30,324 nt of DNA from assembly GCA_934572365.1 (NCBI GenBank), contig CAKTKX010000001.1, forward strand, positions 1 to 30,324. The letters are read 5' to 3'. Source of the DNA: an uncultured Oscillospiraceae bacterium (GTDB lineage Bacteria; Bacillota; Clostridia; Oscillospirales; Oscillospiraceae). The notes beneath the pieces were generated by a model, which worked only from the letters and a program-made list of their open reading frames with translations, had not been told where the DNA came from and made no database searches. The translations under genes were made by a program, and so were the position numbers. Positions 8,166-30,324 of the stretch are shown one piece after another. Every line of letters starts with the position of its first letter. The first letter of the stretch is position 1.

Positions 8166-8750
8166 TCAGGCGTAGGTCTTGATGATTCCCAAGGCAATCT
8201 CCCGCCTGGTCGTACAGCGATCCATGGCCTGTTTTTCGATGTGACGGTGGGCTTCGGCCTCGGTCATTTTCAGCTGCTCAATGAGCAGCCATTTTGCCCG
8301 GTTCACCAGACGGATTTCCTCCATCTTTTCTTCCACGGAGGTGGCCTTTTCCTCCATGCGCCGCAGGCGTTCCCGGGCGGAAACGAGCCATTTCAGGCTT
8401 TGGTTCAGCAGCAGAGCGGACGTTGGTTTTGCCAGCGTGAACACGCCCTGACAGGTGAGCTTGGCTTCCACCTCGTCGTAAACCTCCGATTTTGCCAGCA
8501 GCAGCGCCACGGTGCCGGATTGGCTGCAGGCGTCGATGGCGAAGCGGGTGCCGAAATCGTCGGGCAGGGGAGCGTTGATGATGACAAGATCGTAGGTTTT
8601 GTTCACCATCTCCCGCCGCGCCGCGGCAATGTTGCCCACGAAACGAACCGGGTAATACTCCGAACCGGGGAGCATCTCGGCAAAGGCTTCATTGAATTTC
8701 TGCGCAGCAGACACCACCAGAACGCTGTACGTCCGGTCGCTGAAAACCAT
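8166..8750 (-). CDS. ANTAR-domain transcription antiterminator with degenerate receiver domain
   Basis: A 194-residue protein: an N-terminal response-regulator fold (about 1-115), a coiled-coil linker (about 118-145, RERLRRMEEKATSVEEKMEE) and a C-terminal ANTAR RNA-binding domain (about 140-194, ending REIALGIIKTYA). The receiver is degenerate: the usual acidic pair after the first strand is replaced by SA in VLVVSAA, and the phosphoacceptor Asp is Asn in VIINAPLPDD, while the late Lys-Pro is kept. Phosphorylation is therefore unlikely and it may sense something else. ANTAR proteins bind leader RNA and prevent termination. The gene lies 33 bases after the type I glutamine synthetase gene on the same strand, an arrangement known for glnR of solventogenic clostridia, so a role in nitrogen control is inferred. 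A GGGAGGG site precedes the ATG by about 10 bases. Confidence 0.88.
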   Translation of the reverse strand: MVFSDRTYSVLVVSAAQKFNEAFAEMLPGSEYYPVRFVGNIAAARREMVNKTYDLVIINAPLPDDFGTRFAIDACSQSGTVALLLAKSEVYDEVEAKLTCQGVFTLAKPTSALLLNQSLKWLVSARERLRRMEEKATSVEEKMEEIRLVNRAKWLLIEQLKMTEAEAHRHIEKQAMDRCTTRREIALGIIKTYA

Positions 8751-8783
8751 ATCATGCTCCCTCCCTTCAGAATTTTGCGGAGT

Positions 8784-9989
8784 TTATCGCTTGGTAAAGA
8801 AGTCAATCAGAGACTGGGGAAGATGCTGAGCAATGAAGTTGCTGTTTCCGGCGCACTTTGCCGCGTCGGACAGCGACTTAGGAAGGGGCGCAAGGGCTAC
8901 GTTTCTGGAATCCGCCGTGTGGAGATTGACGTTGCAGGCCTCCGGAAGGGCAATGTTGTTTTCAATCCCGGAAAGTCCCGCCCAGATCAGCAGAGCAAAG
9001 GCAAGATAGGGGTTGGCGGTACAGTCGGGACTGCGCAGCTCGAAGCGCCGGTACTCGCCGGAGGCGGCGGGGACGCGAATGAGCTGGGAGCGGTTGTTGC
9101 TCGACCAGGAAATGTACTTCGGCGCTTTGTGTGCGCCCAGGCGGCTGTAGGACGGCTCGGTGGGGTTGAGAAACAGCGTCATGTCCGTGATCTTGTCCAG
9201 AATGCCGCCCATCGCCCGATGCATGAGTTCATCCGCGCCGCCCTGAACGGACATATTGATGTGAAACCCACTGCCGGGGCGGCCTTCCAAAGGCTTGGGG
9301 GAGAAGTCCGCGTATAGCCCGTTCCGGGCAGCAATGGTTTTGACGACGGTAAGGAAGGTAACGGCATTATCTGCGGCGGACAGGGGATCGGAATAGCGGA
9401 AATCCACCTCGTTCTGGCCGGGGCCTTCCTCGTGGTGGGAGGATTCCGGCTGAATGCCCATCCGTTCCAGGGTCAGGCAGATCTCCCGGCGGACATTTTC
9501 GCATTTGTCCTCCGGCGCGACATCCATATAGGTGGCCTGATCGTAGGGAACGTCCGTCACCTCGCCGTTTTCGTCCAGACGGAACAGATAGAATTCCAGC
9601 TCGGAGCCGAAGGAGAAGGCGTAGCCAGCCTTTGCGGCGTCGGCAACGGCCTGCTTGAGGATGCCCCGGGTATCGTGGGCAAAGGGCGTTCCGTCCGGGT
9701 GGGTGATGGAACAGAACATCCGCACCACGCTACCATGCTCCGGCCGCCAGGGCAGAAGGGCGATGGTGGAAGCGTCTGGGTGGAGAAACAGGTCGGAATT
9801 CACCTCGTCGCCAAACCCCGCGATGGCGGAAGCGTCGATGGCGATGCCGTACTTGAAGGCGCGTTCCAGCTCATGGGGCATGACGGAGATGTTCTTGGGT
9901 CTGCCGAAGCAGTCGCAGAACGCAAGGCGGATGAACTTCACGTCCTCCTCCTGAATGAATTGTATGACCTCCTGAGGCGTATATTTCAT
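8784..9989 (-). CDS. glnA: Glutamine synthetase, short type I-like
   Basis: The 401-residue protein belongs to the GlnA family: beta-grasp N-domain (KFIRLAFCDCFGRPKN), then the catalytic domain with SELEFYLF, the metal/ammonia region GPGQNEVDF, GSGFHINMSV with its His, NRSQLIRVPA and RFELRSPDCTANPYLAFALL. It would make glutamine from glutamate, ammonium and ATP. It is about 40 residues shorter than B. subtilis GlnA and lacks the C-terminal tail that interacts with GlnR there. Where the Glu flap reads GYEAP in B. subtilis, this protein reads AHKAP, so the flap glutamate is missing. It may be a true but differently regulated synthetase or a glutamine-synthetase-like ligase. The ATG at 9989 is chosen over a TTG at 10034 because it gives the family N-terminus and has AGGAAGG upstream, although the spacing is long (11 bases). 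Confidence 0.9.
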   Translation of the reverse strand: MKYTPQEVIQFIQEEDVKFIRLAFCDCFGRPKNISVMPHELERAFKYGIAIDASAIAGFGDEVNSDLFLHPDASTIALLPWRPEHGSVVRMFCSITHPDGTPFAHDTRGILKQAVADAAKAGYAFSFGSELEFYLFRLDENGEVTDVPYDQATYMDVAPEDKCENVRREICLTLERMGIQPESSHHEEGPGQNEVDFRYSDPLSAADNAVTFLTVVKTIAARNGLYADFSPKPLEGRPGSGFHINMSVQGGADELMHRAMGGILDKITDMTLFLNPTEPSYSRLGAHKAPKYISWSSNNRSQLIRVPAASGEYRRFELRSPDCTANPYLAFALLIWAGLSGIENNIALPEACNVNLHTADSRNVALAPLPKSLSDAAKCAGNSNFIAQHLPQSLIDFFTKR

Positions 9990-10116
9990 ACAGCAACCAA
10001 CCTTCCTGCCCGATACGCGGTAAAATTCAAACAAATGAAGTCAAATTAAGTGGGAAAGCAACAGGATCCTTCCGAAAAATGCGCAAACATCCCGGAAAGC
10101 GCTTGCTCCCGAAATT

Positions 10117-10145
10117 ATTATATTCAAATTATCGAGCCTTGTCAA
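10117..10145 (-). promoter_or_regulatory. Consensus sigma-A promoter of glnA (minus strand)
   Basis: Read on the minus strand, a perfect TTGACA (10145-10140) and a perfect TATAAT (10122-10117) are separated by exactly 17 bases. Transcription should start near 10110, giving a leader of about 120 bases before the glnA ATG. I found no convincing terminator in that leader. Confidence 0.85.
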
Positions 10146-10182
10146 TCTGTCCAAAGACAAAAAACTTTTTTTGTGCAGGGTG

Positions 10183-10211
10183 TTGACAAATGGGAAAAGA
10201 TGGTGTAGAAT
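10183..10211 (+). promoter_or_regulatory. Strong sigma-A promoter of glnN
   Basis: TTGACA (10183-10188) and TAGAAT (10206-10211) are 17 bases apart. The start of transcription should lie near 10216-10219, only a few bases before the leader terminator stem. Confidence 0.85.
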
Positions 10212-10223
10212 GCCCACTGTGAA

Positions 10224-10275
10224 GGCAAGGACGTCTCCGAGTGTATGCTCATAACGTCCTTGCCATCTTTTTTTA
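10224..10275 (+). terminator. Leader terminator (attenuator) upstream of glnN
   Basis: GGCAAGGACGT (10224-10234) is the perfect complement of ACGTCCTTGCC (10254-10264), an 11-bp stem. Two bases and a C later comes a run of seven T (10268-10274). The 19-base loop can itself form a 3-bp GAG/CTC mini-hairpin with a six-base loop (TGTATG). It lies between the glnN promoter and the glnN start, so most transcripts should stop at about 55-60 bases unless something overrides it. The hexaloop does not fit the ANTAR consensus (A at position 1, G at position 4). Confidence 0.85.
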
Positions 10276-10334
10276 TTTTCGGCGGTTCGGGCGGGCATTC
10301 CCGGAGCGTCAAATATTGAAAAGGAGCGTTTGTT

Positions 10335-12431
10335 ATGAGTACTGTTTCTGACTATTTCGGCTGTCTGGTGTTTGATGACCGGGTAATGAAGGCCAATCTT
10401 TCCGCTGATGTGTATGCGTCGCTGCGCAGAACCATCGACGAGGGTGCGAAGCTGGACGCTTCCGTTGCCAATGCGGTGGCCGCTGCCATGAAGGACTGGG
10501 CTGTCGCCCACGGTGCCACCCACTATACCCACTGGTTCCAGCCTCTGACCGGCATCACCGCCGAAAAACACGACAGCTTCATTTCTCCCGCTCCCGACGG
10601 CGGCGTGATCATGGATTTCTCCGGCAAGGAGCTGATCAAGGGCGAGCCTGACGCCAGCTCTTTCCCCTCCGGCGGCCTGCGCGCCACCTTTGAAGCCCGT
10701 GGCTACACCGCCTGGGATCCCACTTCCTACGCATTCATCAAGGGCAAGACCCTGTGCATCCCCACGGCCTTCTGCTCCTACGGCGGCGAGGCGCTGGATA
10801 AGAAGACCCCGCTGCTGCGCTCCATGGAAGCCCTGAACCGTCAGGCTCTGCGAATTCTGAAGCTCTTCGGCAATACCGATGTCAAGTGCGTCCGCACGAA
10901 TGTGGGTCCCGAGCAGGAATATTTCCTTGTGGATAAGGAAATGTACGAGCAGCGCAAGGATCTGATCTTCACCGGAAGAACCCTGTTCGGCGCGAAATCC
11001 CCCAAGGGGCAGGAGATGGATGACCACTACTTCGGCGTCATCAAGCCTCGCGTCGCGGCTTACATGGAAGATCTGAACGAAGAGCTGTGGAAGCTGGGCA
11101 TCCTTGCCAAGACCGAGCATAACGAGGTTGCTCCCGCTCAGCACGAGCTGGCGCCCATTTACACCACCACCAACATCGCCACCGACCACAACCAGCTGAC
11201 CATGGAGATCATGCAGAAGGTCGCGGCAAAGCATGGTCTGGTGTGTCTGCTGCATGAGAAGCCCTTTGCCGGTGTCAACGGCTCCGGCAAGCACAACAAC
11301 TGGTCCATGGCCACCGATACCGGCGTGAACCTGCTGTCCCCCGGCGAGACCCCCTATGAAAACGCCCAGTTCCTGCTGTTCCTGTGTGCGGTCATCAAGG
11401 CCGTAGACGACTATCAGGATCTGCTCCGCCTGAGCGTGGCCACCGCGGGCAACGACCACCGCCTGGGCGCCAACGAAGCGCCTCCCGCCGTGGTCTCCAT
11501 CTTCCTGGGCGACGAGCTGATGGGCATTCTGGACGCCATTGAGAATGATACCCCCTACTGCGGCACAAAGAAGACCACCATGAAGCTGGGCGTGGACGTT
11601 CTGCCCCGCTTCCCCAGAGACACCACCGACCGGAACCGTACTTCCCCCTTCGCCTTTACCGGCAACAAGTTTGAGTTCCGTATGCTGGGTTCCTCCAATT
11701 CCATTGCCTGCGCCAACATCATGCTCAACGCCGCCGTGGCCGAGTCCCTGAAAATTTACGCCGACCGTCTGGAAGGCGCGGAGGACTTCGAGACCGCCCT
11801 GCATGACATGATCAAGAAGACCATCAAGGATCACAAGCGCATCATCTTCAACGGCAACGGCTATGACGCCACCTGGATCAAGGAAGCCACCGAGGTTCGC
11901 GGCCTGTGCAACTATCCCACGACTCCCGACTGCATGCCCCATCTGCTGGATAAGAAGAATGTGGATATGCTCACCGCTCACAAGATTTACTCCGTCTCCG
12001 AGATGCAGGCGCGGTGCGACATTATGCTGGAGAACTACTGCAAGGCCGTCATCATCGAGGCCAACACCATGGTGGACATGGCGAGAAAGCAGATTCTCCC
12101 CGCGGTGGAGGGCTACGCCTCCGAGCTGGCCGCTTCCCTGGCCGCAAAGAAGGCCGTTGCCCCCAATCTGGCCTGCGCCTATGAGACCGGCCTTGTCACC
12201 AAGCTGTCCGGCCTGACCGACCAGATCGCCGAAAAGACCGACGAGCTGGAATCCGCCGTTCTGGAGCTGAAGAACGCGGAGGATGTGAAGGAAGAGTCCT
12301 TTGCCATCCGGGACACCATCCTCGGCAAGATGGCAGCCCTCCGGGCTGTCGCGGACGAGGCGGAGACCCAGACCTCTTCCGATTACTGGCCGTTCCCCAC
12401 CTACGGCGAACTGCTGTTTGGTGTGAAGTAA
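10335..12431 (+). CDS. glnN: Glutamine synthetase type III
   Basis: At 698 residues this is a full-length GSIII, the large glutamine synthetase found in Bacteroidetes, cyanobacteria and many Clostridia. It makes glutamine from glutamate, ammonium and ATP in the cytoplasm. The GSIII N-terminal region includes [19 protein letters not shown], followed by the catalytic motifs [30 protein letters not shown] and [14 protein letters not shown], and then the Lys-rich C-terminal helical extension specific to GSIII (about residues 560-698). AAGGAG at 10321-10326 precedes the ATG by 8 bases. The gene lies behind a strong promoter and a leader terminator, so it is probably made only on a nitrogen signal. 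It is transcribed away from the type I-like glnA and towards amtB. Confidence 0.97.
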
Positions 12432-12472
12432 ATCTTGCTTTCACGGCTGCCCATGCCGATCACGGCGGCAAA

Positions 12473-12495
12473 GGAGGGGACTGACCACCCCCTCC
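12473..12495 (+). repeat. G/C-rich hairpin between glnN and amtB
   Basis: GGAGGGG (12473-12479) pairs with CCCCTCC (12489-12495) around a 9-base loop. No T-run follows, so it is not a standard intrinsic terminator. It lies in the 125-base gap between glnN and amtB and may adjust readthrough or mRNA decay. The rest of the gap shows no clear promoter. Confidence 0.5.
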
Positions 12496-12556
12496 GGGCG
12501 GCGGGGAACAGGAGAAAAAACGTTAACCGAATAGAGAGAATGAGGAGGTAACCACT

Positions 12557-14269
12557 ATGACACTGAGTTCCGTAAACACCATTTGGGTACTGTTGGGCGC
12601 TGCGATGGTCTTCTTCATGCAGGCTGGCTTTTCCCTGTGCGAGGCCGGCTTCACGCGGGCGAAGAACACCGGTAACATCCTGATGAAGAATCTGATGGAC
12701 TTCTGTATTGGCACGCCGTGCTTTTGGCTGTTCGGCTTCGGCATTATGTTCGGTGCGGGAAGCTCGATCGTGGGCTGGCTGGATCCCGGCATCACAAAGG
12801 ACTACGGCTTTATTACCCCGGCCGGCGTTCCTCTGTGGGCGTTTGCCATTTTCCAGACCGTATTCTGCGCGACCTCTGCTACCATTGTTTCCGGCTCCAT
12901 GGCAGAGCGCACCAAATTCAGCGCGTACTGCATTTACTCTGCCTGTATTTCCCTGTTTATCTACCCCATCTCCGGACACTGGATCTGGGGCGGCGGCTGG
13001 CTGAGTCAGCTGGGATTCCATGATTTTGCCGGTTCCACGGCCGTACATATGGTCGGCGGCATCTGCGCCTGCATCGGCGCGTCCATGCTCGGCCCCCGTA
13101 TCGGTAAGTACGACAAGGAAGGCAAGCCGAAAGCCATTCTGGGACATAATATTACGGCAGCTGTGCTGGGCGTGTTCATCCTTTGGTTCTGCTGGTTCGG
13201 CTTCAACGGCTGCTCCACGGTAGCCATGGATTCCGATGACGCGCTGATCAGCGCCGGTATGATTTTCTTCAATACCAATCTGGCTGCGGCGGTTGCCTGC
13301 TGCGTGACCCTTGTGTTCACCTGGATTCGCTACGGGAAACCCGATGTGTCCATGACCTATAACGCGGCTCTGGCCGGCCTTGTGGGCATTACCGCCGGAT
13401 GCGACGCGGTTTCTCCCCTTGGCGCTGCCATCATGGGTGCGGTGTTCGGCATCGTTATCGTCCTTTCCGTCGAATTCTTTGACAAGGTTGCCAAGATCGA
13501 CGATCCGGTTGGCGCCGTCTCCGTACACGGTGTGTGCGGTGCGCTGGGCACCATCCTTACCGGCCTGTTTGCCACGGGTGTTTCCACGGAGAAGGGGCTT
13601 TTCTACGGCGGCGGATTCCATTTCCTGGGGATTCAGTGCCTTGGTGTCGTCTCCGTAATGGCCTATGTGGCAGTGATCATTACCGTTGTTTTCACAATCA
13701 TCAAAAAGACCATCGGGCTGCGGGTCAGCGCCGACGAGGAGATTGCCGGTCTGGATGTCTGTGAGCATGGCCTTCCCACCGCTTACGCCGGTTTTGCCAT
13801 GCTGCCCGATACCGCTACGGCGGATGAGGCTCCCGTGGTCGTTTCCGGAGATGTCCCCGCTGCCGAGGCGGTTCCCGTGAAGAAGGTTCCCGACTTCCGG
13901 GACGATGGCGCGCCCAAGTTTACCAAGGTGGAGATTGTCTGCAAGGAATCCCGTCTTGAAAGTCTGAAGAACGCCATGATCTCCATTGGCATCACCGGCA
14001 TGACTGTATCCCATGTTCTGGGCTGCGGCATCCAGAAGGGAAAGCCTGAGTATTACCGCGGCGTGCCGGTAGAGACGAATCTGCTGCCCAAGGTACAGGT
14101 AGAGATCGTTGTCAGCAAGGTGCCTGTCCGCACCGTGATCGAGACCGCCAAGAAGGTGCTTTATACCGGACACATCGGCGACGGAAAGATCTTCGTCTAC
14201 GATGTTGAAAATGTCGTCAAGGTTCGCACCGGAGAAGAAGGCTACGACGCGTTGCAGGACGTTGAATAA
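12557..14269 (+). CDS. amtB: Ammonium transporter with fused C-terminal P-II domain
   Basis: This 570-residue protein joins an AmtB-type channel (about residues 1-400, eleven predicted membrane helices) to a P-II signalling domain (about 453-570) through a Pro/Ala/Val-rich linker. The channel shows the signature DFAGSTAVHMVGG and the pore twin histidines H164 and H324. The P-II part has a T-loop with the tyrosine equivalent of the classical modification site (Y500 in EYYRG), LLPKVQVEIVV and the nucleotide-binding GHIGDGKIFV. It would carry ammonium across the cytoplasmic membrane, with the tethered P-II domain sensing ATP/ADP and 2-oxoglutarate to gate the channel; the gating is inferred from free AmtB-GlnK pairs. 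AGGAGG (12543-12548) precedes the ATG by 8 bases. It follows glnN in the same direction. Confidence 0.95.
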   Translation: MTLSSVNTIWVLLGAAMVFFMQAGFSLCEAGFTRAKNTGNILMKNLMDFCIGTPCFWLFGFGIMFGAGSSIVGWLDPGITKDYGFITPAGVPLWAFAIFQTVFCATSATIVSGSMAERTKFSAYCIYSACISLFIYPISGHWIWGGGWLSQLGFHDFAGSTAVHMVGGICACIGASMLGPRIGKYDKEGKPKAILGHNITAAVLGVFILWFCWFGFNGCSTVAMDSDDALISAGMIFFNTNLAAAVACCVTLVFTWIRYGKPDVSMTYNAALAGLVGITAGCDAVSPLGAAIMGAVFGIVIVLSVEFFDKVAKIDDPVGAVSVHGVCGALGTILTGLFATGVSTEKGLFYGGGFHFLGIQCLGVVSVMAYVAVIITVVFTIIKKTIGLRVSADEEIAGLDVCEHGLPTAYAGFAMLPDTATADEAPVVVSGDVPAAEAVPVKKVPDFRDDGAPKFTKVEIVCKESRLESLKNAMISIGITGMTVSHVLGCGIQKGKPEYYRGVPVETNLLPKVQVEIVVSKVPVRTVIETAKKVLYTGHIGDGKIFVYDVENVVKVRTGEEGYDALQDVE

Positions 14270-14277
14270 AAAGAAAA

Positions 14278-14309: not shown

Positions 14310-14331
14310 CTATTTGAGGAGGAATTCCCAT

Positions 14332-15912
14332 ATGTGTTCCATCATTGGGTACTGCGGTAAGCCTGCCGATATGACCGCCTTTCAGGCAGGCTTCGCCAAA
14401 ACGATTTCCCGAGGCCCGGACGACTCCCGCGTCATTGACGTGGGGCAGGGGATACTCGGCTTTCACAGACTCTCCATCATGGGGCTTCACCCGGAGGGAA
14501 TGCAGCCCTTCGGCCTGAACGGAAGCTGGGTGGTCTGCAACGGCGAGATCTACGGCTTTGAGAAGCTTAAAAAGGAGCTTTCCAAGGACTATACCTTCAC
14601 CAGCGAGTCCGACTGCGAAGTGCTGCTGCCTATGTACGAAAAATACGGCGTCGGCATGTTTGCCAAGCTGGACGCGGAGTTCGCCTGCATAATTTACGAC
14701 GGAAAGCAGAAGAAATTTATCGCCGCCCGTGACCCCATCGGCATTCGCCCGCTGTATTACGGCTTTGACGGAAACGGCACGATCCTGTTTGCCAGCGAAC
14801 CGAAAAATCTGGTGGGGCTGACCGACAAAATCCTGCCGTTCCCTCCGGGACATTATTACTGCGACGGGAAATTCGTCTGCTACTGCGACATCGCGGCGGT
14901 AGACCATGTGCTTCCCGATGACTTAGAAACGGTCTGCGCCAACATCCACGACAAGCTGGTAGCCGGTGTGAAGAAGCGTCTGGTGGCCGACGCAAAGGTC
15001 GGCTTCCTGCTCAGCGGCGGACTGGATTCCTCTCTGGTGTGCGCTATCGCAGCACGGGAGAGCGAAAAGCCCATCCGCACCTTTGCCATCGGCATGAGCG
15101 AGGACGCCATCGACCTGAAATACGCGAAGCAGGTCGCGGATTACATCCACAGCGACCATACCGAGGTCATCATCTCCAAAGAGGACGTTCTTGCCGCGCT
15201 GGAGCCGGTGGTGGCGCTGCTGGGAACCTTCGACATCACCACCATCCGCGCCAGCATCGGCATGTATCTGGTGTGCAAGGCCATCCACGAGACCACCGAT
15301 ATCCGGGTGCTTCTCACCGGCGAGATCTCCGACGAGCTGTTCGGCTACAAGTATACCGACTTTGCTCCCTCTGCCAAGGCGTTCCAGGAGGAAGCCCAGA
15401 AGCGTATCCGGGAGCTGCACATGTACGATGTGCTTCGGGCAGACCGGTGCATCAGCGTCAACTCTCTGGAAGCGCGGGTGCCCTTCGGTGATCTGGACTT
15501 TGTCAAGTACGTCATGGCAATCGATCCGGAGATGAAGCTGAACAAGTACGGAAAGGGCAAGTATCTGCTGCGTCACGCCTTTGAAAAGGGGGATTATCTG
15601 CCCCACGACATTCTCTGGCGGGAAAAGGCGGCGTTTTCCGACGCCGTGGGTCACTCCATGGTGGACTATCTCAAGGAATATGCCGAAACCGTGTATACCC
15701 AGGCGGAATTTGAAGAGAAACGGGCAAAGTATACCCATGCCCAGCCGTTTACCAAAGAGTCCCTGCTTTACCGGGAGATTTTTGAGAAATACTATCCGGG
15801 TCAGAGTCAGATGATCGTGGATTTCTGGATGCCCAACAAATCCTGGGAGGGCTGCAATGTGAACGACCCCTCCGCCCGCGTCCTGGCCAACTACGGCGAC
15901 AGCGGGAAATAA
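14332..15912 (+). CDS. asnB: Asparagine synthase (glutamine-hydrolysing)
   Basis: The 526-residue enzyme has an N-terminal Ntn-type glutaminase domain followed by an asparagine synthetase ATP-pyrophosphatase domain. It makes asparagine from aspartate, glutamine and ATP. The start is set by chemistry: ATG at 14332 gives Met-Cys-Ser-Ile-Ile-Gly, so removal of Met exposes Cys as the nucleophile. A TTG at 14314 would bury it. GAGGAGG (14316-14322) lies 9 bases upstream. The glutaminase domain shows SRGPDDSRV, LGFHRLSIMG and CNGEIYGF; the pyrophosphatase loop is SGGLDS at residues 228-233, and LTGEISDELFGY follows. It is the first of six glutamine amidotransferases in the window and lies directly after amtB. 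Confidence 0.96.
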   Translation: MCSIIGYCGKPADMTAFQAGFAKTISRGPDDSRVIDVGQGILGFHRLSIMGLHPEGMQPFGLNGSWVVCNGEIYGFEKLKKELSKDYTFTSESDCEVLLPMYEKYGVGMFAKLDAEFACIIYDGKQKKFIAARDPIGIRPLYYGFDGNGTILFASEPKNLVGLTDKILPFPPGHYYCDGKFVCYCDIAAVDHVLPDDLETVCANIHDKLVAGVKKRLVADAKVGFLLSGGLDSSLVCAIAARESEKPIRTFAIGMSEDAIDLKYAKQVADYIHSDHTEVIISKEDVLAALEPVVALLGTFDITTIRASIGMYLVCKAIHETTDIRVLLTGEISDELFGYKYTDFAPSAKAFQEEAQKRIRELHMYDVLRADRCISVNSLEARVPFGDLDFVKYVMAIDPEMKLNKYGKGKYLLRHAFEKGDYLPHDILWREKAAFSDAVGHSMVDYLKEYAETVYTQAEFEEKRAKYTHAQPFTKESLLYREIFEKYYPGQSQMIVDFWMPNKSWEGCNVNDPSARVLANYGDSGK

Positions 15913-15992
15913 TCAGGTTTCTGCACCGGTACGGAAAGACAAAAGTTCCAATTTTTGCCCCGCAAAGACGGCACATATCGTGGAAATGATGA

Positions 15993-16021
15993 TTGCGTTC
16001 CGCCACATATTGTGTTATTCT
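15993..16021 (+). promoter_or_regulatory. Sigma-A promoter for the purC operon
   Basis: TTGCGT (15993-15998) and TATTCT (16016-16021) are 17 bases apart, and TGT immediately before the -10 makes it an extended -10 element. Transcription should start near 16028, giving a leader of about 75 bases. No purine or PRPP riboswitch-like structure and no PurR box were recognised in the 191-base gap after asnB, and no intrinsic terminator for asnB either. Confidence 0.65.
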
Positions 16022-16103: not shown

Positions 16104-16820
16104 ATGGAAAAATTGCAGCAGCTGTATGAGGGCAAGGCCAAAAAGGTTTTCGCCACCGACGATCCCGAGCTTCTGATCGTGGATTACAAGGACGACGCCA
16201 CCGCTTTCAACGGGCTGAAAAAAGGCACCATTGCAGGTAAGGGCGTCATCAACAACCAGATGAGCAACCGCCTGATGGCCTATCTGGAAAAGCAGGGCAT
16301 TCCCACCCACTTCGTCAAGGAGCTGTCCGAGCGGGAGACCCTGGTGAAGAAGGTCTCCATCGTTCCCCTGGAAGTTATCGTCCGCAACATCGCTGCCGGC
16401 TCCTTCTCCAAGCACTACGGCGTGGAGGAAGGCGTTGTGTTCGAGCAGCCCACCATTGAGTTCTCCTATAAAAATGACGAGCTGGGCGATCCGCTGCTCA
16501 ATACCTATCACGCCCTCGCTCTGAAGCTGGCGACTCCCGAAGAGATCAAGACCATTGAAGATTATTCCTTCCGGATTAACGACGCACTGAAGGCCTTCTG
16601 GCTGACCTGCGGGGTGACTCTGGTGGATTTCAAGCTGGAATTCGGCCGCCTGTCCGACGGCACCATCGTTCTGGCTGACGAAATCAGCCCCGACACCAGC
16701 CGCCTGTGGGACAGCAAGACCCACGAGAAGCTGGACAAGGATCGTTTTCGCCGGGACATGGGCGGCGTGGAGGAAGCCTACGCCGAGATCATGAAACGTC
16801 TGGAAGAGCATCTGAAATAA
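16104..16820 (+). CDS. purC: Phosphoribosylaminoimidazole-succinocarboxamide (SAICAR) synthase
   Basis: The 238-residue protein matches the length of single-domain bacterial PurC. It joins aspartate to CAIR using ATP in purine synthesis. Visible family motifs: [10 protein letters not shown] (ATP binding, residues 6-15), [16 protein letters not shown] segment as [14 protein letters not shown], and [10 protein letters not shown] followed by [19 protein letters not shown] at 16090-16094 precedes the ATG by 9 bases. It opens the purine/pyrimidine part of the region behind its own promoter and is separated from purA by 85 bases that contain a long hairpin. Confidence 0.97.
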
Positions 16821-16865
16821 GCACAGTTTACAGGACGGAGGAATCCCTCCGCCCTGTAAACGTGC
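16821..16865 (+). repeat. Long interrupted hairpin between purC and purA
   Basis: GTTTACAGG (16826-16834) and CGGAGG (16836-16841) pair with CCTCCG (16846-16851) and CCTGTAAAC (16853-16861), broken by one A-C mismatch. GCAC/GTGC extend the stem past a bulged A, giving about 19 paired bases with a 4-base loop. No T-run follows. It starts on the base after the purC stop, so it may be an attenuator-like or mRNA-stability element within the operon. A weak -10-like TACAAT follows at 16879-16884. Confidence 0.65.
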
Positions 16866-16905: not shown

Positions 16906-18180
16906 ATGGCTAATACCGTAATCGTCGGCATCAACTGGGGTGACGAGGGCAAGGGACGCATGGTCGATCTGCTCACCGAGAATTATGACATCGTCATCCG
17001 TTACCAGGGCGGCGGCAACGCCGGCCACACCGTGATCAATGAGCATGGCAAATTTGCCCTGCATCTGCTGCCCTCCGGCATTTTCCGGAAGGGTGTTGTG
17101 AACATTCTGGGAAACGGCGTCGCCGTTGACCCGGAAAACCTGTGGCAGGAAATGCAGGATGTCACCGGCAAGGGCGTCCCCATCACCCCGGATAACCTGA
17201 AAATCAGCGACCGGGCATCTCTGCTGCTGCCCTGGCACCGTCTCCAGGACGGTCTGGAGGAAGCCCGTCTGAAGGATAAAAAGTACGGCTCCACCAAGCA
17301 GGGCATTGCGCCTTTCTACTCCGATAAGTACCAGAAGAAGACCATTATGGCGGGTGAACTCCTGCATTCCGAGCATCTTTATGAGCATTTGCAGGATTTG
17401 ATGGAGTGGAAGAATCTGACGCTTACCGGCGTTTACGGCGCCGAGCCTGTCACCATGGACGAGCTGAAAGCGTGGATGGACAATTACTGCGAGAAAATCA
17501 AGCCCTTCATCTGCGACACCGGCGTATATCTGCGCAAGGCACAGGCGGAAGGGAAGAAGATCCTGTTTGAAGCCCAGCTGGGCGCGCTGCGGGATCTGGA
17601 CTACGGTATCTACCCCTACACCACCTCATCCAATGCCATCGCCGCTTACGCTCCCGTTGGTTCCGGTCTGCCCACCGCCAAGATCGACGAGGTCATCGGC
17701 GTCGTGAAGGCCTACTCCACCTGCGTGGGCGAAGGCCCCTTCGTCTGCGAGATGTTCGGCGCTGAGGCGGACGCCCTTCGGGAGGCGGGCTTCGAGTACG
17801 GCGCGAAGACCGGCCGTCCCCGCCGGGTCGGCCCCATCGACCTGGTTGCCACCCGCTACGGCGTTCAGGTGCAGGCCGCGACCAACATCGCCCTGACCAA
17901 GCTGGACGTGCTGAGCTATCTGGACAAAATCCCCGTCTGCGCCCACTACGAGCTGAACGGGGAAGTGATCGACGAATTCCCGTTCCCCACGCTGCAAAGC
18001 AGCGCCAAGCCCGTGATGGAATACATGGAGGGCTGGAAGTGCGACATTTCCGGCGTGCGCAAGTGGGAAGACCTTCCCGAGGCGGCGCGGAAGTACGTAA
18101 AGTACGTGGAAGAAAAGATCGGCTGCCGCATCAGCTACGTTTCCGTAGGCCCGGAGCGGGACAGCATTATCATTCGCTGA
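16906..18180 (+). CDS. purA: Adenylosuccinate synthetase
   Basis: The 424-residue enzyme has the expected length. It condenses IMP and aspartate using GTP, the first step from IMP to AMP. The N-terminal GTP/Mg loop reads GDEGKGRMVD (about residues 11-20), GGGNAGHTV follows with the catalytic His, and the C-terminal half carries the GTP and IMP contacts (TSSNAIAAYA; KTGRPRRVGPIDLVATRY). Ribosome site CGGAGG at 16892-16897, ATG 8 bases later. purB starts 15 bases after its stop, so the two steps of IMP-to-AMP conversion are adjacent. Confidence 0.97.
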   Translation: MANTVIVGINWGDEGKGRMVDLLTENYDIVIRYQGGGNAGHTVINEHGKFALHLLPSGIFRKGVVNILGNGVAVDPENLWQEMQDVTGKGVPITPDNLKISDRASLLLPWHRLQDGLEEARLKDKKYGSTKQGIAPFYSDKYQKKTIMAGELLHSEHLYEHLQDLMEWKNLTLTGVYGAEPVTMDELKAWMDNYCEKIKPFICDTGVYLRKAQAEGKKILFEAQLGALRDLDYGIYPYTTSSNAIAAYAPVGSGLPTAKIDEVIGVVKAYSTCVGEGPFVCEMFGAEADALREAGFEYGAKTGRPRRVGPIDLVATRYGVQVQAATNIALTKLDVLSYLDKIPVCAHYELNGEVIDEFPFPTLQSSAKPVMEYMEGWKCDISGVRKWEDLPEAARKYVKYVEEKIGCRISYVSVGPERDSIIIR

Positions 18181-21227: not shown

Positions 21228-21614
21228 ATGGCAGTTAATTTCAATCAGGATTCCGTATGGAATCTGAAACCCATCAGTGTTGACTCGGTGAAATCCGAGG
21301 TGACCGGCCTTCTCATCGGCGGCGAGGAAGTGGTCATGGCATTTCAGACCGTCCGCGACCAACTGATCTTCACAAACAAGCGGATCATCGCGGTGGACGT
21401 GCAGGGAATTACCGGCAAGCGGAAGTCTTTCAGCACCATGCCCTATTCCAAGATTCAGTATTTTTCCATCCAGACCCCCGGCTTTGCGGAGCTGATCCCG
21501 GATTCCGAGCTGTTTATCATGTTCTCCAATACCTTTACCGCAAAGTTTGAGTTCAAGGGCGGCGTGGATATCGGAAAAATCGGCCGCATGATTTCTGAGT
21601 ACGTATTGGGCTAA
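21228..21614 (+). CDS. Bacterial PH-domain protein (bPH_1-like)
   Basis: A 128-residue protein that appears to be one bacterial pleckstrin-homology-like domain. The region TVRDQLIFTNKRIIAVDVQGITGKRKSF (read in two adjoining pieces, about residues 40-68) followed by MPYSKIQYFSIQTPG is typical of the bPH_1 family (PF08000). There is no signal peptide or membrane segment, so it is probably cytoplasmic. Function is unknown; such domains assemble into rings and some are stress-linked. AAGGAG lies upstream of the ATG, with 33 bases to guaA and 31 bases to glmS, so it is co-transcribed with nucleotide and amino-sugar genes. This is the only gene in the operon with no clear metabolic role. Confidence 0.82.
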   Translation: MAVNFNQDSVWNLKPISVDSVKSEVTGLLIGGEEVVMAFQTVRDQLIFTNKRIIAVDVQGITGKRKSFSTMPYSKIQYFSIQTPGFAELIPDSELFIMFSNTFTAKFEFKGGVDIGKIGRMISEYVLG

Positions 21615-21645
21615 GCTGTAACGGCACAGACAAAGGAGGTTTCTT

Positions 21646-25073
<3,428 letters not shown>

Positions 25074-25075
25074 CC

Positions 25076-26509
25076 ATGAGTATCCACGAAGAATGCGGCG
25101 TGTTCGGCGTTTACAGCCAGCGTCAGGAGGATGTAGCGAGCCTTGCCTACTACGGGCTGTATTCCTTACAGCACCGTGGGCAGGAGGGCTGCGGCATTGT
25201 CGTCAATGACGACGGCGTTTTTGACGGCCATAAGGGACTGGGGCTGATCAGTGAGGTATTCACAAGCAGCGTCATGAAGCAGTTCCCCACGGGGAAAATG
25301 GCGGTTGCCCACGCCCGCTACGGCACCACCGGCGGCTCCAATCTGGCAAACTGCCAGCCCATTCAGGTCAACCACTTAAAAGGCAAGCTGGCGCTTGCCC
25401 ATAACGGCAATTTGAGCAACGCGCTTCAGCTCCGCCGGGAGTTGGAGCTTTCCGGCGCCATTTTCCATACTACCTCCGATACGGAGACCATCGCCTATGT
25501 GATCACCCGGGAGCGGATCACCGCTCCCTCCATTCAGGCGGCGGTCAGCCGTGCGGTGGACAGGCTGGAGGGCGCTTTTTCTCTGGTCATGATGTCCTCC
25601 ACCAAGCTCATTGCGGTGCGCGACCCCCACGGTTTCCGCCCGCTGTGCTACGGAAAAATGAAGGACGGGACGTATATCGTCGCTTCGGAGAGCTGCGCCC
25701 TCCACGCTGTCGGCGCGGAATTCCAGCGGAACATTCTGCCCGGGGAAATTCTGACCTTTGATCAGGACGGCATCCACTCCGACACCAGCCACTGCGGCAC
25801 CGCGCCCAAGAAGATGTGCATTTTTGAATACATCTACTTTGCCCGGCCGGATTCCGTCATTGACGGCGTCAGCGTTCACGACGCCCGGGTGAGGGCAGGG
25901 GAGATCCTGGCAAAAACCCACCCGGTGGACGCGGATATTGTCATCGGCGTGCCGGATTCCGGGCTGGACGCCGCCATGGGCTACGCCCGGGAATCGGGGA
26001 TTCCCTACGGCATCGGCCTGATCAAGAACAAATATATCGGCAGAACCTTCATCGCCCCCGGTCAGGATCATCGGGTGGATCAGGTTAAAATTAAGCTCAG
26101 CCCCGTGGAAAGCGAGGTTCGCGGCAAGCGGGTGGTGATGGTGGACGATTCCATCGTCCGCGGCACGACCTCCGGGCGAATTGTGCAGCTTCTGCGGGAG
26201 GCGGGCGCGAAGGAGATTCACATGCGCATCTCCGCGCCGCCCTTCCTGCACCCCTGCTACTACGGCACGGATATTGATTCCCGGGAGCATCTGATTGCCT
26301 GCCACCATACCGTGGCCGAAATCGGGGAGATCATCGGCGTGGACAGCCTGGGCTACCTGCCCCTGGAAAATCTTCGTGACCTGTGCGGAAGCAAAGAATA
26401 TTGCAGCGCCTGCTTTAACGGCGACTATCCCACGTCGATTCCCGAGGACACCCGAAAAGACCAGTTTGAGCAGAAGCTTTCCCAGAGAAAGGCCGGTGAA
26501 AAGCCATGA
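25076..26509 (+). CDS. purF: Amidophosphoribosyltransferase (PRPP amidotransferase)
   Basis: The 477-residue enzyme performs the first committed step of purine synthesis, PRPP plus glutamine to phosphoribosylamine. It is the B. subtilis type with an iron-sulfur cluster. The Ntn nucleophile is Cys7 after a short propeptide (MSIHEE then CGVFGVYS) that must be removed. The likely [4Fe-4S] ligands are the Cys in KKMCIFEY, the Cys in LHPCYYG and both Cys of CSACFNGDYP. The PRPP loop reads VVMVDDSIVRGTT. It starts 2 bases after pyrG and overlaps carA by 4 bases, so translational coupling is likely on both sides. GGGGGAATAACC upstream is a modest ribosome site. Confidence 0.98.
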   Translation: MSIHEECGVFGVYSQRQEDVASLAYYGLYSLQHRGQEGCGIVVNDDGVFDGHKGLGLISEVFTSSVMKQFPTGKMAVAHARYGTTGGSNLANCQPIQVNHLKGKLALAHNGNLSNALQLRRELELSGAIFHTTSDTETIAYVITRERITAPSIQAAVSRAVDRLEGAFSLVMMSSTKLIAVRDPHGFRPLCYGKMKDGTYIVASESCALHAVGAEFQRNILPGEILTFDQDGIHSDTSHCGTAPKKMCIFEYIYFARPDSVIDGVSVHDARVRAGEILAKTHPVDADIVIGVPDSGLDAAMGYARESGIPYGIGLIKNKYIGRTFIAPGQDHRVDQVKIKLSPVESEVRGKRVVMVDDSIVRGTTSGRIVQLLREAGAKEIHMRISAPPFLHPCYYGTDIDSREHLIACHHTVAEIGEIIGVDSLGYLPLENLRDLCGSKEYCSACFNGDYPTSIPEDTRKDQFEQKLSQRKAGEKP

Positions 26510-27591
26510 ATCGGAACTTTGACAGAAAAATCATTTTGGAGGACGGCACCGAATTTTACGGTTACGGCTTCGGCACCAAGGGTGACGCGCTGGTGGAGCT
26601 GGTGTTCAACACCTCCATGGTGGGCTACCAGGAAATCCTCTCCGACCCCTCCTACACCGCCCAGGCCGTGGTCATGACCTACCCCTTGATCGGCAATTAC
26701 GGCATGTGCGACGACGACTACGAGACGGACAAACCCACCATCAGCGGTCTGGTCGTCCGGGAATTCAACAGCGAACCTTCCAATTTCCGCGCCGCGCGGA
26801 CACTGGAGGATGTGATGATTCAGTATCACATCGTAGGCGTCGCAGGGGTGGACACCCGCCGCCTTGCCCGCCACATCCGGGACGAGGGTACCTGCAAGGC
26901 GCTGATCGTGGACGCTCAGACCCCCAGCATCGCATGTCTTGCGGAAATGCGCTCTACCAGCCTGCCCACCGATCAGGTTTCCGTGGTGAGTACGAAATCG
27001 CCGTGGGTTTCCGACTGCGAGCATCCAAGGCACCGCGTGGTGGCCGTGGACTGCGGCATCAAGCACAATATTATCCGCAGCCTGAACGCCCGGGGGTGCG
27101 AAGTGACTATCGTTCCCTGGACGGTCACCGCCGAGCAGGTTATGGCCATGCACCCGGACGGTCTGTTCATCTCCAACGGCCCCGGCAACCCGGAGGACGC
27201 AAAGCCGGTGATTGCCCTCGTTCGCACCCTTCGGGGCAAGCTGCCGATCTTCGGCATCTGCCTAGGGCATCAGATCATTGCCCTTGCCTACGGCGCGTCC
27301 ACTTATAAGCTGAAATTCGGCCACCGGGGCGGAAACCACCCGGTGAAAAACCTCCAGACGGGGAAGGTGGAGATCACCTCCCAGAACCATTCCTACGCGG
27401 TAAATGCGGATTCTCTGGCGGGAACCGGCCTGACCGTGACTCACGTCAACCTGCTGGACGGCACGGTGGAGGGGCAGAAATGCGCCGCTGACCGGATATT
27501 CAGCGTCCAGTACCACCCGGAAAGCGCCCCCGGCCCCCAGGACAGCGCCTACCTGTTTGATGAATTCATCGCCATGATGGAGGAAAAGTAA
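26506..27591 (+). CDS. carA: Carbamoyl-phosphate synthase small (glutaminase) subunit
   Basis: The 361-residue subunit hydrolyses glutamine and channels ammonia to CarB to form carbamoyl phosphate for pyrimidine and arginine synthesis. The N-terminal domain includes [17 protein letters not shown], and the C-terminal class I glutaminase has C252 in GICLGHQI and the His/Glu in [10 protein letters not shown]. Its ATG overlaps the purF stop (ATGA), and AAAGGCCGG lies just upstream. carB begins one base after its stop codon. A single carA copy near purine and CTP genes, rather than in a pyr or arg operon, points to a general nitrogen-use role here. Confidence 0.97.
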
Positions 27592-27592
27592 C

Positions 27593-30324
27593 ATGCCGAA
27601 ACGCACCGATTTGAAGAAAATTCTGGTCATTGGCTCCGGCCCCATCGTCATCGGTCAGGCGGCGGAATTCGACTATGCCGGTACCCAGGCCTGTCTTGCC
27701 CTGAAAGAGGAGGGCTACGAGGTCATTCTGTGCAACAGCAACCCCGCGACCATCATGACCGACCCCGCCATCGCGGACAAGGTTTACATGGAGCCGCTGA
27801 CACTGGAATATATCGCCCGTATCGTCCGCTTTGAGCGGCCGGACGCCATCGTTCCCGGCATCGGCGGCCAGACGGGGCTGAATCTTGCCATGCAGCTGGA
27901 AAAGAAGGGCATTCTGAAGGAATGCCACGTGCAGCTGCTGGGAACCCCCAGCGAATCCATCGAGCAGGCGGAAGACCGGGAGCTGTTCAAGGAGCTTTGC
28001 CAGCGCCTTTGTGAGCCGGTGCTTCCGTCTCAGATCGCCAATTCCATGGAGGAGGGGATCGCCGCTGCGGAGACCATCGGCTATCCCGTAGTGCTTCGCC
28101 CCGCCTTTACTCTGGGCGGCACCGGCGGCGGATTTGCCGATAACGAGGAAGAATTCCGGGAGATCATGAAAAACGCTCTGGTGCTGTCTCCCGTCCATCA
28201 GGTTCTGGTGGAAAAAAGCATCAAGGGCTTCAAGGAAATCGAATACGAGGTCATGCGGGACGCCAACGACACCGCCATTGCCATCTGCAATATGGAAAAC
28301 CTCGACCCCGTGGGCATCCACACCGGCGACTCCATCGTGGTCTGTCCGTCCCAGACGCTGACCAACAAGGAGTATCACATGCTCCGGGATTCTGCTCTTC
28401 GCCTGATCCGGGCGCTGAAAATCCAGGGCGGCTGCAACGTTCAGTTTGCGCTGGATCCCAAGTCCTTCCAGTATTACCTCATCGAGGTCAACCCCAGAGT
28501 GTCCCGTTCCTCCGCCCTTGCCTCCAAGGCTTCCGGCTACCCGATTGCCCGGGTCTCCGCGAAGATCTGCGTTGGCATGACGCTGGACGAAATCCGTCTT
28601 GCCAACACCTGCGCGGCCTTCGAGCCGGCGCTGGACTATGTGGTCACGAAAATGCCACGGTTCCCCTTCGACAAATTCTCCGACGCCAACAACCGTCTCG
28701 GCACCCAGATGAAGGCCACGGGCGAAACCATGAGCGTCGGCCGCACCTTTGAAGAGAGCCTGCTCAAGGGCATCCGCTCCCTGGAAATCGGCGTGTACCA
28801 CCTGCACATGGCGAAATTCGACAGCTGGGGCAGGGAAGCGCTGCTAAACTATATCAGAATCGGCACCGACGACCGCATCTACGCCATCGCCCAGTTGCTT
28901 CGCATGGGCGCAAGCGTGGAGGAAATCGTGGAGAAAAGCACCATCGACGCATTCTTCATCCGCAAGCTGAAAAACATCATCTCCATGGAGCGGGAGCTTT
29001 CCGACGCGGTCATGGACAGCAGCGTGTATTATCAGGCGAAGAAGATGGGCTTCTCCGACCGGGCGGTGGCGCAGATCTGGAACGTCCCGGAACGGAAGGT
29101 GTTTGCCCTGCGTAAGGAAACCAACATCCGCCCGGTATACAAGATGATCGACTCCTGCGCAGGGGAATTCGACAGCTATATCCCGTATTTTTACTCCACC
29201 TACGAGACGGAAAACGAGTCCGTCGTCTCCGACAAGAAGAAAGTCATCGTCCTCGGCTCCGGCCCCATCCGCATCGGCCAGGGCGTGGAATTCGACTACT
29301 CCACCGTCCACGCCATTCAGACCATTAAAAACGCGGGCTACGAGGCCATCATCATCAACAATAACCCGGAAACGGTTTCCACGGATTACACCACCTCCGA
29401 CAAGCTGTACTTTGAGCCGCTGACGGTGGAGGACGTGATGAACGTGGTGGAGCAGGAGAAGCCGGAAGGCGTCATTGCCTCTCTGGGCGGCCAGACCGCC
29501 ATCAATCTGGCGCAGCCCCTGACGGACTTGGGCGTGAACATCATCGGCACCGACTGCGCCGCCATCGAAAAGGCGGAAAACCGGGACGCCTTTGAAAAGC
29601 TTCTCATTTCCCTGAACATCCCCCAGCCCAAGGGAAAGGCCGTCACCCGCATTGAGGACGGCGTCGCCGCCGCCCGGGAGATCGGCTATCCCGTTCTGGT
29701 GCGCCCCAGCTTCGTGCTGGGCGGCCGGGCGATGCAGATCGTCGCCAACGAGGAGCAGCTGCGGCATTACCTCCACACCGCCGTGGAGATCGACGCGGAC
29801 AAGCCGGTGCTGGTGGATAAGTATATCCGGGGCAAAGAGGTGGAGATCGACGCCATCTGCGACGGAACGGACGTGTTCGTTCCGGGCATCATGGAGCTGG
29901 TGGAGCGCACCGGCGTTCACTCCGGCGACTCCATCTCCGTGTACCCGTCCTTCTCCATTTCCAACAAGGTCAAGGGCATCATTTTGCAGTACGCGAAGAA
30001 GCTTGGGCCTGCCATCGGCATTAAGGGCCTGTACAACATCCAGTTCATCGTCGATCCGGAGGATCATGTGTATATCATTGAGGTCAATCCCCGTTCCTCC
30101 CGCACCGTGCCGTTCCTGAGCAAGGCCACGGGCTACCCTCTGGCGGACATTGCCACGTTGGTGGCGCTGGGACAGAGCCTGAAGGAGCAGGGCATCGACA
30201 TGCTGTACCCCGACGAGCAGAAGCGGTACTATGCCAAAGCCCCGGCCTTCTCCTTTTCCAAGCTGCGGGGGCTGGACGCCTACCTCTCCCCGGAGATGAC
30301 GTCCCCCGGCGTGGCCATCGGCTA
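27593..30324 (+). CDS. carB: Carbamoyl-phosphate synthase large subunit (3' end outside window)
   Basis: 910 complete codons are present of a protein usually about 1070 long; the frame is open to the last base. Two homologous halves are visible. The first begins [22 protein letters not shown] with the ATP-grasp region [16 protein letters not shown] and [17 protein letters not shown]. The second begins about residue 545 with [20 protein letters not shown], followed by [17 protein letters not shown] and [17 protein letters not shown]. The missing part is the end of the second half and the C-terminal MGS-like allosteric domain. It makes carbamoyl phosphate from bicarbonate, two ATP and ammonia supplied by CarA. 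The ATG lies one base after the carA stop, with GGAGG inside the end of carA. Confidence 0.98.

Follow-up and report, generated by a model that had tools for sequence, protein, structure and literature searches.

In the analysed window, the whole 30,324-nucleotide stretch of contig CAKTKX010000001.1 from an uncultured Oscillospiraceae bacterium, two divergent gene groups were identified, the gene names being backed by NCBIfam and Pfam profile searches. On the reverse strand lie an ANTAR regulator with a weak receiver-like N-terminus (8166–8750) and a glnA-like type I glutamine synthetase (8784–9989; PF00120 283.7 bits, PF03951 81 bits). The forward strand carries glnN, encoding a type III glutamine synthetase (10335–12431; PF12437, GSIII_N, 266.4 bits), an Amt ammonium channel fused to P-II (12557–14269; PF00909 397.6 bits, PF00543 83.6 bits) and the asparagine synthase gene asnB (14332–15912; NF006949, 622.1 bits). 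These are followed, after a gap of 191 nt, by purC (16104–16820; TIGR00081, 250.9 bits), purA (16906–18180; NF002223, 496.3 bits), purB (18196–19611; TIGR00928, 362.4 bits), the GMP synthase gene guaA (19656–21194; NF000848, 709.9 bits), a gene for a bPH_1 protein of 128 residues and unassigned role (21228–21614; PF08000, 122.5 bits), glmS (21646–23463; TIGR01135, 800.9 bits), the CTP synthase gene pyrG (23478–25073; TIGR00337, 804.3 bits), purF (25076–26509; TIGR01134, 519.6 bits), carA (26506–27591; TIGR01368, 471.1 bits) and carB (27593–30324; NF003671, 1364.6 bits), whose frame is open at the window end. The starts of asnB and guaA were placed by homology. The intergenic gaps from purC to carB are, in order, 85, 15, 32, 33, 31, 14, 2, −4 and 1 nt. 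The profile searches and recomputed gaps bear out the gene names, coordinates and tight spacing of the initial annotation, whose count of six glutamine amidotransferases in the run was correct and whose inventory was right except that the bPH_1 protein had been overlooked. At least six such enzymes among 13 consecutive genes would arise by chance with P ~6e-11, on the assumption of 14 amidotransferase genes among 2000. A horizontal island was rejected in view of the GC content, which stays between 0.52 and 0.61 all along the window.

The ANTAR domain of the regulator passes the Pfam cut-off (PF03861, 57.4 bits vs 27.3) and the receiver domain falls below its own (Response_reg, 20.9 bits vs 30.2); PDB matches were the putative antiterminator 1s8n and AmiR. 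The adjoining GlnA-like protein contains both domains of the glutamine synthetase fold (PF00120 and PF03951), but its TIGR00653 score of 316.7 is below the cut-off of 429. This low score had been overlooked initially, as had the terminator in the glnN leader. The glnA-antar pair is preceded by a promoter-like TTGACA-17-TATAAT (10117–10145, reverse strand; promoter scan), the consensus strings being TTGACA and TATAAT, and its leader (about 10000–10110), read by eye, resembles a decayed form of the glnN leader element. Lys288 occupies the position of the flap glutamate, the catalytic role of which is treated in sections of PMC10799026 and PMC9249791, and Asp61 is placed at the equivalent of Arg62. 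Among 66 aligned GlnA proteins the flap residue is Lys in the window protein and 37 others, Glu in 21 and another residue in 7. The lysine in place of the catalytic glutamate suggests a sensor role for the GlnA-like protein next to the ANTAR gene, and on this basis such a role is proposed.

The glnN leader can adopt two mutually exclusive structures. Downstream of a promoter-like TTGACA-17-TAGAAT (10183–10211, forward strand; 11/12 in the promoter scan) lies a 5′-terminal hairpin, AGGC[AAGGAC]GTCT (10223–10236, forward strand), with homologous hairpins in relatives; its ANTAR-type hexaloop (A1, G4) makes it a proposed antiterminator. The competing intrinsic terminator, identified in the sequence, pairs GGCAAGGACGT with ACGTCCTTGCC (10254–10264) and ends in a T-run, the whole spanning 10224–10274 on the forward strand; a plain terminator scan misses it, its loop exceeding 8. 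A hexaloop hairpin with A1 and G4 that overlaps an intrinsic terminator is found at 10223–10274 of the window and in relatives. The match of the R1 model at 10219–10276 (15.3 bits, E = 0.029) was the highest in the window. Rfam 15 gave 0 matches at gathering score in the window, and nine element loci together with window positions 10000–10400 gave sub-gathering matches only. In two relatives (L003 and L005) the glnN loop is GAAGGC, without A1, and in a third (L037) the glnN leader has no such element.

A loose hairpin scan showed no overall excess (161 vs 145 in reversed sequence), with only loop classes such as AAAGG conspicuous, and the later tests were therefore designed with controls. Among leaders from loci not chosen for the element (L001–L080, L181–L310 and the window), a hexaloop hairpin overlapping a terminator was present in 95 of the 235 that precede six nitrogen genes vs 35 of the 434 that precede other genes. 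The first loop base was A in 99 and the fourth G in 98 of 119 terminator-overlapping hexaloops, a loop rule that had not been presupposed. Stems of at least four pairs, likewise not presupposed, enclosed 71 of 143 promoter-anchored loops, shuffled partners giving a mean of 17.4 and a maximum of 31 over 500 shuffles. In a set whose members were pre-selected for both hairpin and terminator, double-change cells numbered 52 (vs 19.2) for the hairpin and 138 (vs 43.3) for the terminator, each matched in 0 of 500 shuffles. The hairpin begins 5–11 nt past the −10 box in 64 of 79 leaders. A second A1/G4 hairpin with a stem of at least four pairs was seen upstream in 2 of the 79 (shuffled 3.7; not above chance) and downstream in 4 (shuffled 1.6; not clearly above chance). 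The strong terminator placed immediately after a strong promoter, and the occurrence of two modules in series in 14 of the 79 leaders, would fit small RNAs made constitutively, or terminators that insulate glnN and the other downstream genes, but covariation is as evident in the antiterminator stem as in the terminator and the choice of downstream gene is strongly nitrogen-specific, which makes such a role very improbable.

R1, a model of the element trained on this same group of genomes, matched in 64 of 147 of them; ANTAR is encoded in 62 of the 64 and in 32 of the 83 without a match (Fisher p = 6e-15 for co-occurrence, although common ancestry of the genomes means that this and the binomial p values overstate independence). 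Of 113 listed matches 110 were classified (omitting G014:C6:1622021, G044:C112:2936 and G062:C133:5403), G108:C39:98807 being matched on both strands and hence counted twice; at class level, 46 of the 66 matches listed were examined. Reference nitrogen genes, chiefly those of GOGAT and GSIII, follow 98 of the 110: gltB1 (41; class II amidotransferase domain only), glnN (33), amt (6), glnA, pyrG and gdhA (4 each), gltB and the AsnB families (2 each), and purF and purA (1 each). The remaining classified matches precede dapF (1) or a gene without reference match (11), the latter including asnA (3), argG (1) and gatC then purL (1). The 40 regions L141–L180 were picked by eye on terminator complementarity among the matches listed. 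Labels given by eye were later profile-scanned on representatives (gltB parts, gdhA, dapL, dapF, asnA, argG, gatC, purL, argD, glnQ, Lrp and GNAT), and the GlnQ label fell below the NCBIfam cut-off (306 vs 379).

These distributions bear on whether the element is an ANTAR target or an attenuator of another kind, such as reiterative transcription of the B. subtilis pyrG type or a small-molecule or tRNA sensor. B. subtilis pyrG uses 5′-end attenuation, pyrG is among the targets here, and each terminator has a single hexaloop at the extreme 5′ end, all of which would suit a different attenuator. We nevertheless consider it improbable in view of the A1/G4 loop rule, the near-universal presence of ANTAR in genomes with R1 compared with those without, the same element before functionally unlike genes, and the lack of an Rfam family at gathering score in the window, with sub-gathering matches only at the other loci tried. 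Some observations run against the ANTAR reading itself, among them the one hexaloop hairpin per module, the low R1 score in the window, the decayed look of the glnA leader element, the deviating glnN leaders of L003, L005 and L037 and the 32 ANTAR genomes without R1.

In individual relatives the element extends to genes that spend amide or aspartate nitrogen, where it was found before pyrG, purF, purA, guaA, purC, purB, AsnB-family genes and gatC. In one set of upstream regions it lies directly before pyrG in 7 of 49 regions, purC in 1 of 8, purF in 1 of 38 and guaA in 1 of 65, and directly upstream of none of asnB (29 regions), carA (20), glmS (19), purB (18), purA (16) or carB (15); these rates are not unbiased, since they include loci selected for the element (L081–L180), and many spending genes lie inside operons. 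One relative (G095, L294) has a window-like purC-purA-purB-guaA-pyrG-carA run with its own tandem element, and its six R1 modules reach E 0.022 or better, two of them preceding purC. In the cultured relative Angelakisella massiliensis (L025) elements precede glnN, gltB1 and pyrG.

Gene order in the relatives was used to check the earlier proposal that the block is grouped by nitrogen donor, and such grouping proved to be above chance and to recur in shuffled arrangements. Of 94 ANTAR genomes, 38 (39 regions) have one or more of ten genes of amide- or aspartate-nitrogen use no farther than 10 kb from ANTAR, a count made after several regions offset toward pyrG had been trimmed to 10 kb of ANTAR, with others truncated where the contig ends; the distinct arrangements vary in content and in extent of contig besides order. 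In 12 of the 81 genomes that have both, pyrG is no more than 500 nt away from ANTAR, far above chance, and enrichment of glmS and purC near ANTAR was not significant (3 of 100 regions each, P = 0.06). In G071 the run reads glnA-antar-guaA-guaA′-pyrG-purB-purA-purC-purF, with no R1 match upstream of glnA.

Conserved synteny of housekeeping biosynthesis genes, that is, a growth-rate cluster in which the glnN attenuator serves glnN alone and no control is shared, would agree with several features of the locus. The separation of asnB and purC is 183–243 nt in the window, L004, L005 and L010; a promoter-like TTGCGT-17-TATTCT precedes the window purC (15993–16021, forward strand; found by eye and absent from the promoter scan output), with neither a hexaloop element nor an R1 match in this gap; and the element is seldom seen immediately ahead of most spending genes. 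Against it stand the varied arrangements in the 39 regions near ANTAR, the proximity of pyrG to ANTAR and the single relatives with the element before spending genes, and we judge this explanation rather unlikely. In L002, L003 and L008 the asnB-purC gap is 17–18 nt, which suggests co-transcription of purC-carB with glnN-amt-asnB in these relatives. The initial claim of joint control is sustained insofar as an attenuator-like element is common to glnN, GOGAT, Amt and some glutamine- or aspartate-nitrogen users in relatives; in the window it occurs in the glnN leader only, and weakly, so that joint control of purC-carB there is a presumption.

Most probably the block serves this uncultured Clostridia bacterium as its nitrogen hub, and its genes are members of an ANTAR attenuation regulon or are being recruited to one. 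The analysis shows the gene content, a pair of mutually exclusive RNA structures that both covary, the gene context of these structures and their co-occurrence with ANTAR. In the proposed mechanism, RNA polymerase would start at the strong promoter and the 5′-terminal A1..G4 hexaloop hairpin would form within a few bases. Left unheld, its loop and 3′ arm would be absorbed by the longer terminator hairpin and transcription would stop before glnN. Binding of the hexaloop by the divergently encoded upstream ANTAR protein would prevent the terminator from forming, and the resulting antitermination would allow glnN-amt-asnB to be made and perhaps, by read-through, purC-carB, which would then be under the control of the element in the window as well. 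The signal is presumably nitrogen status (glutamine or ammonium), with the GlnA-like protein as the putative sensor partner of ANTAR. In relatives, some users of glutamine or aspartate nitrogen are preceded by the same element or adjoin the ANTAR gene. Uptake, glutamine-making and spending genes may in this way be tuned together to the nitrogen supply of the cell.

A wider and more speculative possibility is a global amide-nitrogen regulon, in which a single-hexaloop 5′-terminal ANTAR antiterminator, sensed via a catalytically disabled glutamine synthetase, would couple ammonium capture to the spenders of glutamine and aspartate nitrogen (CTP, GMP, AMP, PRA, FGAM, asparagine, tRNA amidation and arginine); each lineage would wire a different subset, and super-operons of the window type would be a recurrent physical trace. 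If this is true, an ANTAR regulon, known mainly for nitrogen acquisition, reaches nitrogen spending, and one RNA switch makes the synthesis of nucleotides, asparagine and arginine and the amidation of tRNA depend on nitrogen state in bacteria known mostly from metagenomes, with a glutamine synthetase proposed to have turned sensor.

Among the best-ranked matches in a limited literature, no paper was found that links ANTAR to CTP or GMP synthase or describes a clostridial nitrogen regulon of this kind, nor one on Oscillospir- glutamine amidotransferase or purine-amidotransferase regulation of this kind. The literature search gave no paper on NitR of Clostridium, and six terms looked for in the premature-terminator survey PMC2965389 are all absent from it.

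The GlnA-like protein recalls the B. subtilis GS-GlnR/TnrA circuit, as presented in parts of PMC9249791, where a type I glutamine synthetase gene also lies beside a nitrogen regulator of which its product may be the sensor; here, in contrast, the regulator is an ANTAR protein and the equivalents of Glu304 and Arg62 are Lys288 and Asp61. A ligand-binding partner acting on an ANTAR protein, as described for AmiC-AmiR in sections of PMC3369936, is common to the NasS-NasT and AmiC-AmiR pairs and to our proposal, although in our case the partner resembles a glutamine synthetase and has a proposed role only. As in the EutV, NasR and AmiR regulons covered in portions of Ramesh et al. (2012, PMC3369931), an A1/G4 hexaloop hairpin overlaps an intrinsic terminator, the targets include P-II, Amt and the glutamate and glutamine synthases, and the matches concentrate in ANTAR genomes. 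Those portions also name 'arginine' synthase enzymes; pyrG, guaA, purF, purA, purC, gatC-purL and argG go beyond the targets that they name. Judged from its sequence, the element class would differ from classical ANTAR attenuation, with ANTAR binding presumed: the hairpin is single and 5′-terminal, and its spacing from the promoter is almost constant, whereas the dual arrangement of PMC3369931 has a second A1/G4 hairpin across a short linker (5–12 nt in eut) and eutP needs two hexaloop hairpins in vivo. The papers of 2012 and 2022 leave it open whether ANTAR needs one hairpin or two, and the present set offers a large natural collection of single-hexaloop 5′-terminal candidates on which to settle it. 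PMC8934654, in the sections concerned, redefines the minimal ANTAR target as one hexaloop, as found here, and also notes that eutP depends on both loops in vivo; by comparison, the elements described here would be antiterminators that naturally have a single loop.

Profile matches (NCBIfam/Pfam) confirmed the gene names of the initial annotation, and the tight purC-carB run that it described was equally observed, with successive gaps of 85, 15, 32, 33, 31, 14, 2, -4 and 1 nt (range -4 to 85 nt). A gene coding for a bacterial PH domain (bPH_1, 21228-21614) is placed inside this nitrogen run, between guaA and glmS; in the related locus L008 the guaA-pyrG spacing (42 nt) leaves no room for it. 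The purC-purA interval of the window contains a 16-pair hairpin (16826-16861) with no T-run on the + strand, and the same gap is likewise long in locus L004 (128 nt). Upstream of glnN lies a run of two genes that points away from it, ANTAR and a glnA-like gene, with 33 nt between them.

The proposed grouping of these genes by nitrogen donor is supported beyond the window, where it recurs near ANTAR genes in shuffled orders; for the window block, the joint control by glutamine status proposed with it stays a hypothesis. Among the best 80 loci of a GuaA scan of GTDB contigs, the nearest mostly keep the gene order of the window, the farther ones contain several of the same genes reordered, and many have guaA alone. 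An ANTAR gene is present in 94 of 147 genomes sampled from a single taxonomic order, that of Angelakisella massiliensis (the genome of locus L025). A count, with no preselection of genes, of the families lying no more than 10 kb from ANTAR in five or more of these 94 genomes gave glnA (65), ANTAR itself (59), glnN (41), three parts of a split glutamate synthase (41, 38 and 38), an oxidoreductase (35), an iron-sulphur protein (29), pyrG (16), LL-DAP aminotransferase (15), purF and DapF (9 each), gltB, gltD, carA and asnB (7 each), guaA, purA, purB, carB, gdhA, an ABC ATPase and an unassigned frame (6 each), and a further four families with 5 each, two amt groups among them. In a looser BLAST count, with a chance expectation of about 0.9 per gene, one or more members of a set of ten amide- or aspartate-nitrogen genes occurred in 39 of 100 ANTAR regions (38 genomes, 39 differing gene strings); pyrG (18), purF (9), asnB (8), carA and carB (7) and guaA, purA and purB (6) are above chance in these 100 regions, and glmS and purC (3 each) are not. 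In the 81 genomes with both genes, pyrG is located less than 500 nt from ANTAR in 12 and less than 20 kb in 35.

Genome G151 carries on one strand, not all adjacent, fes-fadox-gltB3-glmS-glnA-antar-purF-carA-carB-dapF-guaA-pyrG-dapL, G058 carries fes-fadox-gltB3-glmS-antar-purF-carA-carB and G071 glnA-antar-guaA-guaA'-pyrG-purB-purA-purC-purF. The GlmS, PurF, CarAB and GuaA proteins of the G151 and G058 assemblies share only 43-53% identity with those of the window. Several relatives have, after guaA, another guaA-like stretch that is shorter (L231:11991-12905, L013 and L027; 49-51% identity to the GuaA query), and LL-DAP aminotransferase and DapF genes lie near the ANTAR gene in L302, L300, L265 and L356.

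A concrete candidate for the cause of the donor grouping is an ANTAR-type attenuator with a single hexaloop. In the window, 11 nt separate the glnN promoter (10183-10211) from the hairpin AGGC[AAGGAC]GTCT, whose bases are shared by the terminator that comes next (10224-10264, with a T-run ending at 10274). Such a hairpin appeared in 12 of 13 glnN leaders read (window included), all 12 with G at loop position 4 (G4); the A at position 1 (A1) is replaced by G in L003 and L005, and the glnN leader of L037 has no such hairpin. Because the search patterns contained the loop, it was tested without presupposing it. Among loci selected without regard to the element, a hexaloop hairpin overlapping a terminator was found in 95 of 235 nitrogen leaders versus 35 of 434 others, with the loop consensus A A N G G C. 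Leaders anchored by promoter and loop motif, with no stem required, showed a stem of at least 4 pairs in 71 of 143 cases (mean of 17 for shuffled partners), and both alternative structures, hairpin and terminator, covary in an alignment of 44 elements whose members were preselected for both. Of 79 leaders, 64 have the hairpin start 5-11 nt downstream of the -10 box, and 11 have no promoter by the rule used. Two modules in series occur in 14 of the 79. Across the 79 leaders a second A1/G4 hairpin does not stand out, either upstream (2 vs 3.7 shuffled) or downstream (4 vs 1.6).

A covariance model of the element (R1) gave 113 matches, distributed over 64 of the 147 genomes; ANTAR is present in 62 of these 64 and in 32 of the remaining 83. 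Classified by next gene, 98 of 110 matches precede reference nitrogen genes (gltB1 41, glnN 33, amt 6, glnA, pyrG and gdhA 4 each, gltB and AsnB families 2 each, purF and purA 1 each), one, in G036, directly precedes dapF, and 11 have no reference match. Of these 11, three precede asnA, one argG, one gatC followed by purL and one an Lrp-type regulator; three more are other or unclear, and the last two have no readable gene before the contig end. The element was also seen ahead of pyrG in six of the top-scoring 30 pyrG loci, with some overlap with the 110 matches, and before pyrG in G013, G015 and G017, guaA in G078, AsnB-family genes in G087 and G010, purA in L021 and argD in G153 and G244. 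Directly before most nitrogen-spending genes it is rare (guaA 1/65, purF 1/38, pyrG 7/49 and purC 1/8 upstream regions), and in that count none was found directly before asnB (29 regions), carA (20), glmS (19), purB (18), purA (16) or carB (15); many of all these genes are intra-operon. G095 (locus L294) has a block resembling that of the window; there, glnA and glnN each have one R1 module before them, and gdhA and purC have two each (the purC pair at E 0.0008 and 0.022), this purC being followed by purA-purB-guaA-pyrG-carA.

Of the 17 genomes behind the guaA loci, 13 were matched, giving 22 hits at E values of 0.05 or less. Of these hits, 20 precede glnN, glnA, gltB, gltB1, a GlnQ-like ATPase, pyrG, purA or an AsnB-family gene; another stands before a circularly permuted ATP-grasp protein, and the last is unclear. 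In L382 (G002), the gene after the R1 element encodes an ATP-grasp protein of the circularly permuted type 2 (Pfam PF14403). Class-wide, at 1e-4, 48 of 243 genomes match; among the 46 of 66 listed matches that were classified, 33 precede reference genes (gltB1 13, glnN 11, glnA 4, AsnB-like 2, amt, purB and purC 1 each), one is a weak dapF match and 12 have none, two of these 12 preceding asnA and argD and several being repeated sequence with no clear gene. In several class-level genomes (L400, L402, L403, L410, L412 and L415), near-identical R1-like elements have similar short stretches after them that lack a clear gene; they possibly represent another element type or a repeat.

The best R1 match of the window is its glnN leader, at a low 15.3 bits (E=0.029), and no R1 element was found by the model at its purC. 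The asnB-purC spacing is 17-18 nt in L002, L003 and L008, with the same strand continuing to carB in L003 and L008, and 183-243 nt in the window, L004, L005 and L010. Read-through would thus be a plausible, predicted way for the glnN switch to govern purC-carB in these loci. Among the three short-spaced loci, L003 alone extends to the glnN leader, whose loop has no A1.

The GlnA-like protein encoded beside ANTAR may act as a sensor. Across 66 aligned GlnA proteins from the vicinity of ANTAR, that of the window among them, the residues for metal, substrate and arginine are almost invariably conserved, but the flap glutamate position is occupied by lysine in 38, glutamate in 21 and other residues in 7. 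GSIII is present in 37 of 37 lysine genomes of the sample versus 18 of 21 glutamate genomes (p=0.04, compared by hand). In other Clostridia (L392, L407 and L422), R1 precedes longer GlnA genes (443-446 aa) that are 41-43% identical to that of the window. According to PMC10799026 and PMC9249791, catalysis by B. subtilis GS needs the flap residue Glu304, which together with Arg62 also holds the glutamine-inhibited state bound by GlnR; in the window protein the counterparts are Lys288 and Asp61, respectively. With respect to the ANTAR target of two hairpins, P1 and P2, in PMC3369931 and PMC3369936, the element described here equals the P2 part, without P1. PMC8934654 redefines the minimal ANTAR target as a single hexaloop, and recalls the in vivo need for both hairpins at eutP.
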